Assembly (NCBI GenBank): GCA_018816865.1
Contig: JAHIUW010000017.1
Span: forward strand, 186,001 to 250,000
Origin: Pseudomonadota bacterium
Lineage (GTDB): Bacteria; Desulfobacterota; Desulfovibrionia; Desulfovibrionales; Desulfovibrionaceae
Length of the DNA: 64,000 nt
Reading direction: 5' to 3'
Position 1 is the stretch's first letter; each line of letters opens with the position of its first letter. The position numbers were made by a program, and so were the translations under genes. The notes under the pieces were generated by a model. That model searched no databases. It was not told the DNA's origin and was given only the letters and a program-made list of their open reading frames with translations. Below, in pieces: positions 5,214 to 17,808 of this stretch.

Positions 5214-6272
5214 ATGCATACGCCCGCAACTCCGACGCCTGAATACTTCGCCCTGGGCCGCTCATTCGCCGCTCTGCGCTTCAGTTTCGACGACCCGCGC
5301 CACAAGGCCGTGGACACCCTGAGAAGGCTCTGCGCCACCGCGACCGCCCACGCCCTGGCCCGGGGAGAGCTCCTGCCCCCCCTGCCTGCTCCGGACAGGC
5401 AGCCAAGCCCCGGGGAATACCCCAAAGCCCCCGTGGACCCCTTCGAGCTGCTGCGCCACGAGATGGGGCTGCCATCCTTGCCCACCATCTACGCCGAGTT
5501 GCAGGAGGTCATCGCCGCCCCCGGGACCTCGGCCGGCAACGTGGCCCACGTCATCAGCCGGGATACCGGCCTGACCGCATCCCTGCTGCGCCTGGTGAAC
5601 AGCTCGTTCTACAGCTTTCCGTCCCAGATCGAGACCATCAGTCGCGCCGTGACCCTGGTGGGCACGGCCCAACTCACGACCCTGGCCATAGGCACCACGG
5701 TCATGAAGCTGTTCTCGGACATCCCCGACGAGCTGGTGAGCATGGAGACCTTCTGGCGGCACAGCATCGCCACGGGCATCCTGGCCAGAAACCTGGCCAG
5801 ACGGGCTGGCGAGAAGGATCCGGAGCGGCTATTCGTGGCCGGCCTGCTGCATGACGTGGGCCTGCTGATGATGTACCAGGCCATTCCCGACAAGTGCCGC
5901 CTGGTGCATTCCTTCGTCCGCGACCACGGCGCAATCCTGCACAGCGCCGAGATGAACATCCTGGGGTTCGACCACGCCATGCTCGGTGGCATGATGCTCC
6001 GCAAATGGAACCTGCCCTACCCCCTGGTCAATGCGGTGCTGCGCCACCACACCCCGGACAAGAGCGAAGAACACCTTGAACCCACCCTGGTGCACATCGC
6101 CAACAATCTGGCCGGGGCCCTGGATGGTACCGCTCACGGTGAGCCGTTCATCCAGCCCCTGAACATCATCGCCTGGGACGCCACAGGCCTGACCTCCGAG
6201 GACCTGGAAGCCACGGCGCTGGAATCCGAGACCCAAATCAACGAGGCCTGCCAGGCCATGCTCAATGCCTGA
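5214..6272 (+). CDS. HDOD-domain signalling protein
   Basis: A 352-residue protein with an HDOD domain at about residues 80-280. HDOD domains are HD-superfamily relatives that usually lack the full metal site and act as non-catalytic hubs in signalling and motility. Visible signatures are LPSLP at the domain start, the RDTGLTASLLRLVNSSFYS segment, and LLHDVGLL with the HDVG at 213-216. The C-terminal RHHTPD keeps a histidine pair, so residual metal binding cannot be excluded. The first 75 residues are Pro/Ala-rich and have no recognised domain. No other output domain is fused. It is alone on its strand and converges with the lysozyme-like gene. Confidence 0.85.
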   Translation: MHTPATPTPEYFALGRSFAALRFSFDDPRHKAVDTLRRLCATATAHALARGELLPPLPAPDRQPSPGEYPKAPVDPFELLRHEMGLPSLPTIYAELQEVIAAPGTSAGNVAHVISRDTGLTASLLRLVNSSFYSFPSQIETISRAVTLVGTAQLTTLAIGTTVMKLFSDIPDELVSMETFWRHSIATGILARNLARRAGEKDPERLFVAGLLHDVGLLMMYQAIPDKCRLVHSFVRDHGAILHSAEMNILGFDHAMLGGMMLRKWNLPYPLVNAVLRHHTPDKSEEHLEPTLVHIANNLAGALDGTAHGEPFIQPLNIIAWDATGLTSEDLEATALESETQINEACQAMLNA

Positions 6273-10302: not shown

Positions 10303-10452
10303 ATGAATATCCAGGACATCAAGGCCACGACCGAAGAAGGTCTTCGTTTCCCGCCCCAACGCTGCCGCGAGCGCTTCATTGATGCGGACTGCGGACTGCT
10401 TGAGGGTCCATCCGTCTATTACAGCAAAACCACGCCACTGGAGGCCCTATGA
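10303..10452 (+). CDS. Possible 49-residue ORF coupled to the next gene
   Basis: An ATG at 10303 opens 49 codons ending in a TGA that overlaps the next ATG (ATGA at 10449-10452). The start of the peptide reads MNIQDIKATTEEGLRFP. The overlap and the GGAGG inside its last codons are what one expects if translation of this frame couples to the next gene. The ribosome site for this ORF itself is weak (GGAACGGT) and nothing is recognised in the peptide. The 278-base gap otherwise holds no feature. Confidence 0.25.
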   Translation: MNIQDIKATTEEGLRFPPQRCRERFIDADCGLLEGPSVYYSKTTPLEAL

Positions 10453-11567
10453 GCGACAAGCACGGTGCACAGGAAACCAGCCCCAGCAAGGCAGTGGGAA
10501 GCGGCCCCCGCAAGGCCGCGATCCTGCTGGTCATCGCGGCTCTGGCCGTGGTGACCGTCCTGGGCGTCAAATTCATGGAAAAGCAACAGGCCCTAGACGA
10601 AGTCATCGTGGGCAGCGGTGAGGCAGCCCACAAGGGAGTCCTGGACCTGCCCCTGTTCGCGCCCAAACCCGACCCCACCGCCCCGGATCAGGGCGCGGCC
10701 GGGGACACAACGCAACCCCCCGAGGGCCCGGCCGCTTCCAGCGTGACCATGAGCGCCGCCCCGGCCGAACCCCGAACCGACCGGGTTCTGACCAACGCCT
10801 TTGTCCGTGACCTGGCCAGCACCCTGGCGACCCATTACCAGCCCGCCGGAACCCGCGCCAATCTGGGCAACCGGGGCGTGGTCAGCCTGACCTTCAAGAA
10901 GCTAAACATGCGCTACGGCACCGAACTGACCGGAATGAACGTGGACGACCAGGACGCCACAGCCGGACGCAAACAAGCCCTGTCTCACCTGTTTTCGCCC
11001 ATCGTGCTGCGCCTGGTGTTCGACATCTTCTCCCAACCCCTGATCGACGAACTCATGGTCCAAGGTTCTGCCCAGCAGCGGGAGTTCAAGAACGGGAATT
11101 CCTACGTCGGACGCCCCCTGTCCGATGCCCAGATCAGGGAAATGCTGAAGCTCTACGCCTCTCTGGTGTCCGACACGGGTAAAGCCTTCGAGGCCTTTGC
11201 CAGCCGCCCCGACCTGACCACCGCCCTGAACCGGTATTTCGAGGCCTCGGCCCGGGTCAACGCCGCCTACGGCAAATACTCGGACCGCGCAGCCGTGGAC
11301 GCCCCGCAGCAAGAACTGGATGAGATCTCCCTGGAGATCAAGAACGCCATCCAGGCCCGCGAGCAGGCCCGTAGCGGACTACTCACGGGCATCAGGCTCG
11401 GCCCCGGCTCCACCCTGGCCGAAAGCGACGTCATCGACATCGCCTCCTGGATTCACCGCCGTCTGGCGACCGATGCCGACGCCATGAACGCGGTGGGGGC
11501 CATCGCCTCCCTGAGCAAAGAATTCTCGGTCAGGCTGGGGGAAGCCACCTATCCCCCCAAGGGCTGA
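10449..11567 (+). CDS. Membrane-anchored protein of unknown function
   Basis: A 372-residue protein with one N-terminal transmembrane segment (about 24-43, AAILLVIAALAVVTVLG), preceded by a basic cytoplasmic tail, so the bulk should be periplasmic. Residues about 65-115 are rich in Pro, Ala and Thr and look like a flexible linker. The C-terminal 260 residues are polar and mainly helical, with no recognised domain or catalytic motif. There is no lipobox and no cysteine. GGAGG lies a few bases before the ATG. A perfect terminator follows after 23 bases, so the transcript ends here. The function cannot be named from sequence. Confidence 0.75.
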   Translation: MSDKHGAQETSPSKAVGSGPRKAAILLVIAALAVVTVLGVKFMEKQQALDEVIVGSGEAAHKGVLDLPLFAPKPDPTAPDQGAAGDTTQPPEGPAASSVTMSAAPAEPRTDRVLTNAFVRDLASTLATHYQPAGTRANLGNRGVVSLTFKKLNMRYGTELTGMNVDDQDATAGRKQALSHLFSPIVLRLVFDIFSQPLIDELMVQGSAQQREFKNGNSYVGRPLSDAQIREMLKLYASLVSDTGKAFEAFASRPDLTTALNRYFEASARVNAAYGKYSDRAAVDAPQQELDEISLEIKNAIQAREQARSGLLTGIRLGPGSTLAESDVIDIASWIHRRLATDADAMNAVGAIASLSKEFSVRLGEATYPPKG

Positions 11568-11961: not shown

Positions 11962-13404
11962 CTAGCAGGTGATCTTGTCGCACTCCATCAGGCGGCACCA
12001 GACGCGCACGAGGTGCTCGTCCCACTGGGACCCGGCCCCGGCAAGCAGAATCCGGCGGGCCTCTTCCGGGGTTCGACGCTGCTGGTAGGCACGGTCGGTG
12101 GTCATGGCTTCAAAGCCGTCGGCCACGCTCACGATACGCGCCATAAAGGGGATGGAATCACCGTGCAGACCGTCAGGATAACCCGCGCCGTCCACGCGCT
12201 CGTGGTGATGATAAACGATCGGCAGCACGTCTTGCAGTGTGTGAATGTTGGAAAGGATGTCGCGGCCCATGACCGGATGCCTGCGCATGACCAGCAGTTC
12301 GTCTTCAGTCAGCGGACCGGGTTTGCCAAGGATGCTGTCGGGCACGCCGATCTTGCCCACGTCGTGCAGAATGCCCGCAAAGGACAACCGCTCCACCTCG
12401 CGCTCCGGCAGGCCGATCTCCCGGCCCAATTGCGAGGCAAAAGCCCCCACTCGCTCCGAATGGCCCTTGGTGTAGATGTCCTTAGCCTCCACCGAACAGA
12501 CATGGGAGGTGATGATCTCCAGGTTCATGTCGCTCAGGCGGCATTGGGCCGACAGGTTTTCCATGGCCGAAGCGGCCTGAGAAGCGAACACCGTGAGCAT
12601 CTGGAGGCTCGGCAGGGCGTAAGCACCATGCTTCAGATCGCGCACGATCACTGCCGCCCCCAGTGCGCCGGAGCCGTCCATCACCGGACAGACCATGGCG
12701 GACACCGTGCACGACCCCGAACCGGTGCTCATGACCAGGGAATCGAACAGTTTGGGGCTGCCGCTGCTCATGAGTCGCTCCGAGACGGCATCGAACCACG
12801 TGCGGGCGCGGGATTGTTCACGCAGCAAAGGCCCCCAGGCCACGCACCGGCCCAGCCCCTGCGCAAAATCCTCGCGAAAGAACAAGGCCATGGCATCAGG
12901 GCGGAAGGTCTCGCGCATCTGGACCAGGAATTCCTTGACCAGGGCCTTCAAGTCCCGCTGGCTGCGCAGGGCCGTCCCCAGGTCCAGCACCCTGTCCAGC
13001 TCGGACCGCTCACCATCGAGAGCCCGGCGGCGCAGGGTGCATTGCTCCAGGATATTTTCGACCTTGGTCACAAACTGGCGAAGGTCGAAGGGCTTGAGCA
13101 GATAGTCGGCGGCGCCTTGCTGGATACATTCAACAGCACTTTCTATGGTGCCATACCCCGTCAGGATCATCACCTCGGCATTGATGTTCCGGCTGCGCAT
13201 CTCATCGAGCAATTCATGCCCGCCGAGCTTGGGCATGCGTAGGTCGGTCACGACGAGGTCAACGGGGGTGGAGGAGAGAATATCCAGGGCTTCGGAGCCG
13301 TTGCCCGCAGTCATAACGCAATAGCCGCAGCCCTCAAGGGTTTCCCTGTTAACCGCGAGAAGTTCAAGCTCGTCATCGACGAGCAGGATGGTGCGTTGAT
13401 TCAT
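11962..13404 (-). CDS. Response regulator cyclic-di-GMP phosphodiesterase (REC-GAF-HD-GYP)
   Basis: A 480-residue soluble response regulator. The receiver (5-120) has the full set: Asp10-Asp11, acceptor Asp54 in VVTDLRMP, Thr82 and Lys104 in LLKPF. A GAF-like sensor region covers about 135-285. The HD-GYP domain (295-465) has HDVGK (347-351), HHHERVDGAGYPDGL (399-413) and DGFEAMT, so the metal site and GYP loop are intact and cleavage of cyclic di-GMP is expected. It is divergent from the HDOD-kinase/MinD pair with 265 bases between the starts, which makes that kinase its natural candidate partner. Confidence 0.9.
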   Translation of the reverse strand: MNQRTILLVDDELELLAVNRETLEGCGYCVMTAGNGSEALDILSSTPVDLVVTDLRMPKLGGHELLDEMRSRNINAEVMILTGYGTIESAVECIQQGAADYLLKPFDLRQFVTKVENILEQCTLRRRALDGERSELDRVLDLGTALRSQRDLKALVKEFLVQMRETFRPDAMALFFREDFAQGLGRCVAWGPLLREQSRARTWFDAVSERLMSSGSPKLFDSLVMSTGSGSCTVSAMVCPVMDGSGALGAAVIVRDLKHGAYALPSLQMLTVFASQAASAMENLSAQCRLSDMNLEIITSHVCSVEAKDIYTKGHSERVGAFASQLGREIGLPEREVERLSFAGILHDVGKIGVPDSILGKPGPLTEDELLVMRRHPVMGRDILSNIHTLQDVLPIVYHHHERVDGAGYPDGLHGDSIPFMARIVSVADGFEAMTTDRAYQQRRTPEEARRILLAGAGSQWDEHLVRVWCRLMECDKITC

Positions 13405-13669
13405 GCGTCCTGCATTGGCGGAAGATTCACCCGGTCATTGGCGTGCAACACCGGGCTGTGCTGCAAATACTGGGCATTTCTACCCCAGCCTGAAATGCAT
13501 GTCCAGACCGGCAGCAAATCACCTCAAAATTACAGGGATATACATAATATTTGCGAAAGACTTTTATACTGCAGAAGCATGTTTTGCCTTTTCTCCATAA
13601 ATTTCTTATGGATTTCCATGCGGCACAAGCTTGCCGCGCACAGCCACCGCAGACGCAAAGGAAGGCGCG

Positions 13670-16330
13670 ATGCATACCGTTGAGAGCCCCAGCGACGTCC
13701 CCAATATCCGGGACATTGTCCGGCATATCGGGGAACTGCCCGCCCCTCCGTCCGTGGCCACCAAGATCCTGAACAGCGTCCTCGCCGAGGATGTCGATTT
13801 TCACAAAGTCTCCGAACTGATCGAATCCGATCAGGCCCTGACCCTGAAGATCCTGCGCCTGGCCAACTCCATGGCCTACGGCTACCGGGGCAAGATCGAA
13901 AACGTCGAGCAGGCCATCGCCACCATCGGCTTCGACACGCTCAAGACCTCGCTGCTGTCGGTGATCATTCGCGACAGCCTCTACAAGGACCCTCAGGGCG
14001 GCGACCCCCTGCTGATCCATATCTGGAAACACACCCTGGCCTGCGCCGTGGCCTCCGGCCTGGTGGCCGCACGTGTTCTGCCGCAGTTCAAGGATGTGGC
14101 CTTTGCGGCGGGCATGGTTCACGACTGCGGGCAATTGGTGCTGCTCTCGGGCATGGCCGGGGAATACGAACCGCTCCTGAAACGCAGCATCGCCGGCGAA
14201 GCCTGCCTCTCGGACCTGGAAACAGAGGTCTTGGGCGTGGAGCACACCCTGGTGGGCAAATGGCTGCTCTCGGCCTGGAAAATGCCCCAACGCCTGATCG
14301 ACAGTGCCTGGCTCCATCACCAGGACCCCGTGGCCCTGGGCGAACTGGGTGAGGAAGGCAAGCTCGTGACCGCCGTGGCCATGGGCGACATCCTGGCCCA
14401 TGAGGTGATGCACGATGCCCCCTGTGCGGCCTCGGCGGGCCAACGCGCCGAATTGGCCGCCGCCCTTGGGCTGGACGAAGCCGCCCTGGAATCCATCAAG
14501 GGCCGCATCGGCGAGGGATTCGCCAAGCGCGCCGATCTCTTTGACCTGGATGACGACGCCGCCCTGTTCTACTTCCAGGCCCTGCAGCGGGCCAACTCCA
14601 AACTGACCGGCATCAACACCCGATTGGCAGCCAGGGAGGAACGCCTGTCCAGCGGAAACACCCTGCTCAGCGCCGTGGCCACCGCAGGCCCCAGGCTGGC
14701 AGTGGCTCCCGACAGCGAAAGCGTTTTCCGGGCCGTGGCCCGGGCCATCCAGGACGGACTCGGAGCAGGCCGCGTCTTTGCCTACCGCATCGACGCCGGC
14801 GGCAAGCTCCTGGAAGGCCTGTTGTCCGACAACGGCAGCAGCCACCATTTTTCGGTCATCCTGGATGAGGATCTGCGCCCCCTGTGGGGCAAGGCGGACA
14901 ATGAGCCTCCGCGCGACATGCAGTCCCTGCTCTCGGCCTACCTGACCCGCATCCCGGCAGACGGACCGAGCGAGGAACTGCCCCGCCCCATCCCGGTCCC
15001 CCCGTGGCAATTGCTGCCGCTGCTGGCCGAGGACGGCTTCCTGGGCGAGATCGGCATCGAACCGCCCATCGAGGCGGCGCTGCTTCCCGAACAGGCGGCG
15101 GGCTTGGCCCAGCTGGCCAGCCTGGCGGCGGCCGCCCTGCATCGTCTGGAACTGCATGACCGGCTTGAGGAACGGGCCGACCGGCTGAGTTCGGCCCTGC
15201 GCAAGATCAGGCGCATGAACCACAAACTGTTGCAGACCGAACGCCTTGCCGCCGTGGGCCAGCTGGCCGCCGGAGCCGCCCACGAGATCAACAACCCCCT
15301 GGCCATCATCTACGCCCGTGCCCAACTCCTGGAGCTCCGCGAGAGCGACGACAAGAAGAAGAACGATTTCCAGCAGATGATGACCCAGATCGAGCGGATC
15401 ACCGCCATCCTCACAAACCTGATGGATTTCGCGCGTCCCACTCCGCCACGCATGGAGAGCACTGCCTTAAGCGGCGTCATCCGCCGCTCGCTGAGCCTGG
15501 TGGAAAGCGGTCTGGATAAACAGGGCATCACCCTGGACGCCCAGGTGGAGAGCCTGCCCTCCATCACCGGCGACGGCAACCAGCTGGAGCAGGTGGTCCT
15601 GAACCTGCTGATCAATGCGGAACACGCCGTGAGCGAGGCCCATCCCGAGGAAGGGGGCATCATCACGGTGCGTGCCACCGTCCAGGGCGACAAGGCCGTG
15701 CTCACCGTGGCCGACAACGGTGTGGGCATCAAGGCCGAGAACCTGAACAAGATCTTCGACCCCTTCTTCACCACCAAAGAGGAAGGCAAAGGCACGGGCC
15801 TGGGCCTGTCCACCTCCTACGGCATCGTCCAGAGCCACGGTGGCGACATCCGCTTTCATTCAGTGCCCGGAGAAGGCACTGAAGTCACGGTGGTCTTGCC
15901 CCTGTCCGCCCAGGCCGGGCCACCGGAAAAGATACCCGCACGACCCGAGGCGAATCAGGCCAAGGCCATCCTGGTGGTTGACGACGAGAAGCATATCCGG
16001 GATATCTTGCGCGAAGCCCTTGAAGCCCGAGGCTACCGGGTGGAGACCGCCAACGACGGCGAACAGGGGCTGGCCAAACTGGCCGCCAATTCCTACCGCT
16101 TGCTGCTGCTGGACATCCGGATGCCCTCCCTGGACGGTTTGTCCCTGCTGGCCGAGGCCAAGAATCGCATCGGCAGCATGCCGGTCATCGTGCTCACGGG
16201 CATGGCCGGACCCGAGGAAATCGAGAGGGCCCTCAAACTCGGGGCCTACAAATGTGTGCGCAAACCTTTCAACATCGATGCCCTGCTCGAAGACATCTCC
16301 GCTGCTTTCAAACCGGAGGATGCGGCATGA
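13670..16330 (+). CDS. HDOD-domain hybrid histidine kinase (HDOD-GAF-HisKA-HATPase-REC)
   Basis: An 886-residue soluble hybrid kinase. An HDOD domain (about 20-290) opens the protein with [27 protein letters not shown] and MVHDCGQ (HD at 151-152). A GAF-like region spans about 330-490. The kinase core has a short coiled linker (495-525), phospho-acceptor His538 in [14 protein letters not shown] (682-686) and GTGLGL (708-713). The C-terminal receiver (766-882) has Asp771-Asp772, acceptor Asp815, Thr843 and Lys865. No membrane segment is present, so the signal is cytosolic. The ATG at 13670 follows AAAGGAAGG by 5 bases. Its TGA overlaps the ATG of the MinD-like gene (ATGA), so the two are translated together. 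Confidence 0.88.
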
Positions 16331-17808
16331 AGATCGTCCCCCTGAACCCAGACATCCCCCCCACACGCGTGGTCTCCGTGGCCAGCGGCAAGGGTGGAGT
16401 GGGCAAGACGAGCGTCACGGTCAACCTGGCCTATGCCCTGGCTGAACTGGGCAACAAGGTCTGTATTCTGGATGCTGACCTCGGTCTGTCCAACGTGGAC
16501 ATCCTGCTCGGGGTGCAGCCCCGCTGGACCCTGGAAGACGTCCTCTTCGACGGTCTGCCCATGTCCCAGGCCATCCTGCCCGTGGGCCGGGGCGTGGACC
16601 TGATCTCGGGCTCGTCGGGCGTGCCCCGGCTGGCCGAATTGACCCTGCCGGAACGGCGCAGGCTTATGGACCAGTTCAAGGCCCTGGACACCTACGACTA
16701 CCTGCTGGTGGACAACTCCCCGGGCATCACCCAACAAATCCTGTCCATCTGCCTCTCCTCCAAGGACATCATCGTGGTGGTCACCCCGGACGCAACCTCC
16801 ATCACCGACGCCTATGCCCTGATCAAGGTCATGAGCCAGAACGGCCTGTGGTGGAGCCCGCAGATACTCATCAACCGCGCCAACAACCCGCGCCATGCGC
16901 GACTGATCTTCGAAAAAATCCGCGCCACCGCCGGCAAGCACCTGGGCCTGAACTGCAACTATCTGGGCAGTATCATGGAGGACCGGGCCATGTCCGCCGC
17001 CGGGGCCGCACAGCGCCCGCTGATGCTGCTGTCCCCCGGCTCCCCCGCGGCCCAGGACATCGCAGCCGTGGCCAAGGCCCTGGACGACGCAGGGCTTGAG
17101 CGCAAGGGCCGCGAGGTCACCCCGCTTCGTTTTCTGGACGGCTCCATCATGCGCCTGAAGCAGCAGGATCGCAGTCGCATAACCGTGACCACCACGGCCA
17201 AACGCTTTTCACAGCGCAACGCCACCCTGGAGGCCTCGACCCTGCTGGATGGTCTGGACCACCTCTCCCTGTGTCTGGATCGGTTGGATCTGCCACACAC
17301 CGAAAGCGAACAGCAGCAACTTCTGATCTCCATGCGCCGCGAACTGGGAAACCTGCACGCGCTCCTGGCACCCGCGGGTACCGCGCAACCCGTCAAGCCG
17401 GTGCGCCGCACCTCGCAGCCCCGCAAACAGGACGGCAACATTCCTGCACCCCGGGCCGCAGGCAACGGCAAGGCACTGCTGATCTGCCCGCCTTCGCCCA
17501 TGCGCGACGTGCTGACCGAGGTGCTTACGGCCTCGGGCCTGGACACTGTCTCGGCACATCCTCGCGCCTCGAACGGTCCCGACTTCACGGGCTACAGCTT
17601 GGGACTGATCTGCTGGGACGCCCCCAGGCAGGAACTGGAACGCATCGTATCCTGCGCCGAGGGCACTCCGGTGGTCCTGCTGCGCGGCTACCGGCGCACC
17701 CCGGAACACGAGCCCGACCTCGCCAACCAGGCCGTCACCGTGCTGCACAAGCCCTTCAAGGTCACCGACCTGACCGGTGCCATCCGCAAGGCCGCCGGCC
17801 TGTCCTGA
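16327..17808 (+). CDS. MinD/FlhG-like ATPase with C-terminal receiver-like domain
   Basis: A 493-residue protein. Residues 1-280 are a deviant-Walker ATPase of the ParA/MinD/FlhG class: GKGGVGKTS at 21-29, DADLGLSNVDILLG (49-62) and DNSPGI. The wording of the second motif is closest to FlhG/FleN, which set flagellar number. A linker rich in Pro, Arg and Lys follows, then a receiver-like domain (about 373-493). That domain keeps an Asp in LICWD at the acceptor position and Lys-Pro in LHKPF, but has CPPS where the acidic pair should be, so phosphorylation is doubtful. No amphipathic membrane-targeting tail of the MinD type is evident. It is coupled to the HDOD-kinase by an ATGA overlap. Confidence 0.82.
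   Translation: MKIVPLNPDIPPTRVVSVASGKGGVGKTSVTVNLAYALAELGNKVCILDADLGLSNVDILLGVQPRWTLEDVLFDGLPMSQAILPVGRGVDLISGSSGVPRLAELTLPERRRLMDQFKALDTYDYLLVDNSPGITQQILSICLSSKDIIVVVTPDATSITDAYALIKVMSQNGLWWSPQILINRANNPRHARLIFEKIRATAGKHLGLNCNYLGSIMEDRAMSAAGAAQRPLMLLSPGSPAAQDIAAVAKALDDAGLERKGREVTPLRFLDGSIMRLKQQDRSRITVTTTAKRFSQRNATLEASTLLDGLDHLSLCLDRLDLPHTESEQQQLLISMRRELGNLHALLAPAGTAQPVKPVRRTSQPRKQDGNIPAPRAAGNGKALLICPPSPMRDVLTEVLTASGLDTVSAHPRASNGPDFTGYSLGLICWDAPRQELERIVSCAEGTPVVLLRGYRRTPEHEPDLANQAVTVLHKPFKVTDLTGAIRKAAGLS

Follow-up and report, generated by a model that had tools for sequence, protein, structure and literature searches.

We found that a response regulator (H), a hybrid histidine kinase (K), and an FlhG/FleN-like ATPase (M) are encoded side by side in a genome from the Desulfovibrionaceae, in a real and conserved arrangement of known parts that is apparently undescribed. 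A literature search of open-licence papers returned no described unit of an HDOD kinase and an FlhG-like protein. When and where ParA/MinD-type ATPases act, and how they are signalled to, is largely an open question. A kinase gene that overlaps the gene for an FlhG paralogue with a degenerate receiver is a compact and testable meeting of two-component signalling, cyclic di-GMP (c-di-GMP), and an ATPase.

Domains of the regulator and the kinase

By the window, we mean the whole stretch of DNA that was analysed (64,000 nucleotides). The original prediction placed the three genes at positions 11962-17808 of the window, with an ATGA overlap between the kinase gene and a MinD/FlhG-like ATPase gene. 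The three reading frames are real and lie there, and the overlap is present:

11962..13404, minus strand: H, a REC-GAF-HD-GYP response regulator of 480 amino acids (from Pfam and an ortholog alignment)
13405..13669, no strand: the divergent intergenic region between H and K, 265 bp (141-348 bp in eight related loci)
13670..16330, plus strand: K, a soluble HDOD-(GAF-like)-HisKA-HATPase-REC hybrid kinase of 886 amino acids, with an ATG start at 13670
16327..16330, plus strand: the ATGA overlap of the K stop and the M start, 4 nt
16327..17808, plus strand: M, an FlhG/FleN-like ATPase with a helical linker and a pseudo-receiver tail, 493 amino acids
17464..17793, plus strand: the pseudo-receiver tail of M, about residues 380-490 (from profile comparison, predicted structure, and alignment)

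K matches the Pfam models HDOD (E = 6e-47), HisKA (1.5e-11), HATPase_c (7e-26), and Response_reg (2e-27), and H matches Response_reg (1e-26) and HD_5 (2e-38). GAF domains had been proposed for both proteins. The one in H stands, being weak in the window's protein (GAF_3, E = 0.02) and clear in an aligned ortholog (GAF_3, 6e-10), but the one in K is a positional guess: Pfam gave no GAF match in the middle of the protein (about residues 340-500), and we call that part GAF-like by its position only.

Both proteins have the residues expected of working signalling enzymes. Across 22 aligned orthologs of K, H538, the N and G boxes, and D771, D772, D815, T843, and K865 of the receiver are invariant; with its HisKA histidine, N/G boxes, and intact receiver, K is a hybrid histidine kinase by motif content. 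Across 11 aligned orthologs of H, the receiver residues D11, D54, T82, and K104 are invariant, as are H347 D348, H399-H400-H401-E402, G406, and G408-Y409-P410 of the HD-GYP domain. H thus carries the HD and HHExxDGxGYP motifs of HD-GYP phosphodiesterases and is a predicted c-di-GMP phosphodiesterase.

In the intergenic region between H and K, sigma-54 and sigma-28 sites gave no consistent match across nine loci. A scan for consensus promoters and terminators gave no excess over shuffled sequences. The word TGTCCAG (CTGGACA on the strand of H) occurs in this region in seven of the nine loci, and it could be the -35 part of an H promoter. Two other genes lie nearby in the window. One (5214-6272, plus strand, about 5.7 kb from H) encodes a separate stand-alone HDOD protein (Pfam HDOD, 2e-64); HDOD-only proteins belonging to the same loose cluster appear repeatedly close to K-M in family 4, and in locus L041 one is directly downstream of M. 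The other (10449-11567, plus strand) encodes a 372-amino-acid protein that has no Pfam match; it adjoins H in the nearest relatives (L038 and L039) only.

An FlhG-like ATPase with a degenerate receiver

The N-terminal part of M is a ParA/AAA_31 ATPase (by Pfam and structure searches). In its core (residues 13-258), SGKGGVGKT, D49, D51, and D129 are invariant among the aligned M orthologs, and the invariant deviant Walker A motif (SGKGGxGKT) marks the core as FlhG/MinD-type. In a sequence search of solved structures, the closest relatives were FleN/FlhG (5j1j, E = 3e-45), ahead of MinD, and the predicted model of M best matched FlhG (4rz2) and FleN (5j1j). FlhG/FleN are short proteins that end in a membrane-targeting amphipathic helix. 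In M, which has 493 amino acids, the core is instead followed by a long helical linker (residues 266-347), and then by a further domain, about 110 residues long, with a receiver fold.

The original prediction tied the module to the positioning or number of a polar structure and cited the control of flagellar number by FlhG/FleN. A canonical flhF-flhG-fliA cluster is located elsewhere in the window's genome, on another contig (G000:C5), so M is an extra FlhG-like protein and we rejected it as the flagellar FlhG. It could instead be a second flagellar FlhG/FleN that sets flagellar number or place under the control of K, which would suit its nearest solved relatives and the distribution of its neighbours. 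Neither K nor H was found in any of the 13 genomes that were at least 90% complete and had no flagellin; among near-complete genomes with flagellin, 31 of 118 had K and 40 of 118 had H (Fisher p = 0.04 and 0.01, respectively, with no correction for phylogeny). This distribution fits a motility role for K and H and does not show one. Besides the genuine cluster elsewhere, a second flagellar FlhG is hard to square with the many flagellated genomes of the order, the majority, that lack M, and no flagellar gene recurs beside K-M in the fetched neighbourhoods. We consider this explanation very unlikely.

Other FlhG-like ATPases were seen as well. In the window's genome (L002, G000:C15:84859-88575), a 275-amino-acid FlhG-like ATPase follows a GGDEF protein of 309 amino acids, downstream of an apparent release-factor gene, and this pair is a possible second link between an FlhG-like ATPase and c-di-GMP. 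In family 5 (L071-L074 and L077), a shorter paralogue of M (353-399 amino acids) has no receiver tail and stands alone, without a neighbouring HDOD kinase.

The receiver-like tail that had been described from the sequence does have a receiver fold. The tail aligned to the receiver of K with hhalign at a probability of 97.9 (E = 6e-13) and to the receiver of H at E = 1e-10. Folded alone, it was predicted with a pLDDT of 89, and its top Foldseek matches were receivers (TM 0.6-0.7); topology and profile similarity both place it in the receiver fold.

The phosphorylation site is another matter. None of the 22 aligned tails has an Asp in the acceptor column, which holds S, C, N, or Y instead. In the window's protein, the acceptor Asp is replaced by C429, the acidic pair by C387-P388, and the Thr by R453, while K475-P476-F477 is kept. 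Across these 22 tails, C or S takes the place of the pocket's first acid, most tails keep at most one acid of the acidic pocket and have lost the Thr, and the Lys/Arg-Pro-Phe turn is largely kept. Because no tail has the acceptor Asp, the tail of M should be blind to phosphate and should not take it up. In 10 of the 22 tails, the second residue past the lost acceptor is an Asp, and phosphorylation of these tails is unlikely. We therefore rejected the tail as a phosphorylatable receiver, and with it a flow of phosphate from the kinase to the ATPase. The tail is probably a docking piece rather than a relay target.

With a profile of the M tail, we scored 344 receivers of the fetched loci, including 7 M tails. 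Receivers of K scored highest, with a median of 44 bits; the medians were 29 for receivers of H and 16 for the 222 others, and 58 of 73 K receiver rows outscored every non-K receiver. In a tree of 67 receivers, the M tails formed one group whose branching place was not resolved. We therefore describe the tail as K-receiver-like in the sense of profile similarity only, with descent from the K receiver unproven.

Pairing of the kinase with the ATPase and with the regulator

We sampled 150 genomes of the order and found K in 38 and H in 48; M gave high scores in a similar set of genomes. In 36 of the 38 genomes with K, K and M are adjacent. The pairing spans families 1 to 5 (family 1 is the window's), and because adjacency recurs in five families, the arrangement is not due to chance. 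The same 4-nt overlap of K and M is present in eight fetched related loci, and most others have short overlaps or gaps. The two genomes without this adjacency (G039 and G052) have a K that stops before the receiver, and M is absent; these genomes are close relatives, and the joint loss of the K receiver and M may be one event.

Each gene also occurs without the other. Second copies of K in G116 and G089 have a receiver and no neighbouring M, and G138 has M without K. In G076, G103, and G550, M is paired with a different, PilZ-like kinase. In genus g6 (L044:10482-12230 and L205:10472-12157, both on the minus strand), the gene before the tailed ATPase encodes a HATPase protein that has neither HDOD domain nor receiver; the PilZ match of this kinase-like partner is weak (below the Pfam cut-off), and we take it as a second hint of a connection to c-di-GMP.

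In a sample of the phylum, a single genome outside the order (G258) had K. There, an FlhG-like ATPase fused to an N-terminal MerR-like domain (L206, G258:C93, 3094-4212, plus strand) comes right after the HDOD hybrid kinase, as a pair that has diverged in sequence (30% identity). This M has no receiver tail, so K-M pairing does not depend on the tail in every case. A kinase-profile scan of the contigs of named genomes brought up mostly unrelated hybrid kinases, with no additional K-M pair.

The linkage of H to this pair is tight in family 1. Among 90 sampled genomes of this family, the 10 that have K are also the 10 that have H, and with nine further genomes included, K-M has a divergent H in all 19 genomes that carry K. 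One sampled genome of genus g2 has K, M, and H and others have none of them, so the three genes come and go as a unit. In family 3, G047 has the order K-M-H in one direction. A tree of H places all family-1 sequences together in a single clade and groups the H of G047, which is linked to K-M, with an H from family 3; because it nests there, the three-gene linkage was formed or kept at least twice. Linkage of all three genes thus holds in family 1 and in G047, but H is unlinked to K nearly throughout families 2-5.

In those families, H is found with other partners. In families 2 and 3 and in parts of family 4, H opens an operon with the order H-CheB-HEAT-CheR-PilZ-ParA-CheW-CheY-CheA; in family 5 it precedes CheB, and in genus g32 (family 4) it is elsewhere. 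H is present without K in 14 of the 150 sampled genomes, in many of them at the head of a chemotaxis operon. Because H so often heads a CheA3-type chemotaxis operon in other families, it is not exclusive to K, and the view of K as the dedicated kinase of H does not extend across the order.

Perhaps, then, K and M are a two-gene system, and H is an independent regulator that settled beside K in family 1 and takes its phosphate from a CheA-type kinase (of a CheA3-like operon) or from another kinase. Its place at the start of an operon that ends in CheA and its occurrence without K speak for this, and among near-complete genomes of families 2-6, the association of K with H is marginal (Fisher p = 0.06). 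Family 1 itself tells against it. Genomes of this family such as G105 and G106 keep the chemotaxis operon without H at its head; the relatives examined have no HD-GYP gene at its head, and their H is always with K. The window's genome (a draft of 42 contigs) has no copy of the operon's HEAT gene and no close CheA3, and yet it keeps H beside K. That the H-K-M linkage was formed or kept twice also speaks against it. We think that this reading is somewhat unlikely. More generally, the distribution of H suggests that one HD-GYP regulator has switched between two partners, a chemotaxis operon in some families and a HisKA kinase in others.

A possible switch and its relation to known systems

We tentatively favour a kinase-ATPase switch in flagellated cells, formed by the receiver of K and the pseudo-receiver of M and coupled in family 1 to c-di-GMP hydrolysis by H, although we hold it at slightly less than an even chance. 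In this cytosolic switch, K would sense an internal cue via its HDOD and GAF-like domains and then autophosphorylate. The phosphate would pass to its own receiver, and all of the catalytic residues for this transfer are present. In family 1, phosphate would also pass to the receiver of the divergent H and raise c-di-GMP hydrolysis; such a transfer from K to H is plausible. M would be translated in coupling with K, and its tail would dock on K at the surface that is normally used by the K receiver. The phosphorylation state of K would then control the ATP-dependent dimerisation or the release of M, which would go on to act on a client. By analogy to FlhG/FleN, candidates for this client are motility components and sigma-54-type activators.

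Phosphate could also travel by a longer route, in which a free Hpt protein takes it from the receiver of K and hands it on to H and to others, with M as a separate output that is read by protein contact. Hybrid kinases with the architecture of K commonly use a separate Hpt; K is a hybrid with an intact receiver, and there is no Hpt domain in K, M, or H. No candidate Hpt gene recurs in the fetched neighbourhoods, and we judge this relay to be quite improbable.

The kinase-ATPase switch has a bolder version in molecular mimicry. M would carry a phosphate-blind receiver that descended from the K receiver and competes for the docking surface of K, so that a MinD/ParA-type ATPase comes under the direct control of a two-component system and the linked HD-GYP protein sets c-di-GMP. 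We regard this version, with its added claim of descent, as fairly unlikely.

The closest known systems that bear on H are from Desulfovibrio vulgaris. In this species, cheA3 comes last in an operon that includes a parA homologue, and motility requires it (PMC3944678). In families 2-4, H orthologs can similarly be the first gene of an operon with cheB, cheR, parA, cheW, cheY, and a terminal cheA; we equate the two operons by gene content, not by direct comparison. In contrast, H in family 1 is beside K-M and outside that operon. D. vulgaris also has receiver-linked HD-GYP proteins like H (DVU0722, DVUA0086, and DVU2933), whose HD-GYP domains in isolated form hydrolyse c-di-GMP, with pGpG as the main product (PMC4114195). 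The operon of DVU2933 has five genes, among them those for a histidine kinase and a DNA-binding regulator; unlike for H, no HDOD kinase or ATPase partner is reported for the three proteins in the available part of that source.

M shares the ATPase fold and the deviant Walker A motif of FlhG/FleN (PDB 4rz2, 5j1j, and 8pb9), with about 32-37% identity over 240-260 structurally aligned residues. It differs in its long helical linker and C-terminal pseudo-receiver, and it is encoded with a kinase, does not adjoin flhF, and co-exists with a genuine FlhG.

CpaE/TadZ proteins of the Tad pilus are MinD-like ATPases with an atypical receiver domain. M likewise has a ParA/MinD-type ATPase fused to an atypical receiver-like domain, and the Foldseek matches of its tail include a receiver structure related to pilus assembly (4dad). 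No Tad pilus genes were recognised among the recurrent neighbours of K-M in the fetched loci. The receiver of CpaE/TadZ is N-terminal, whereas that of M is C-terminal, and the ATPase of M is FlhG-like and paired with a hybrid kinase.
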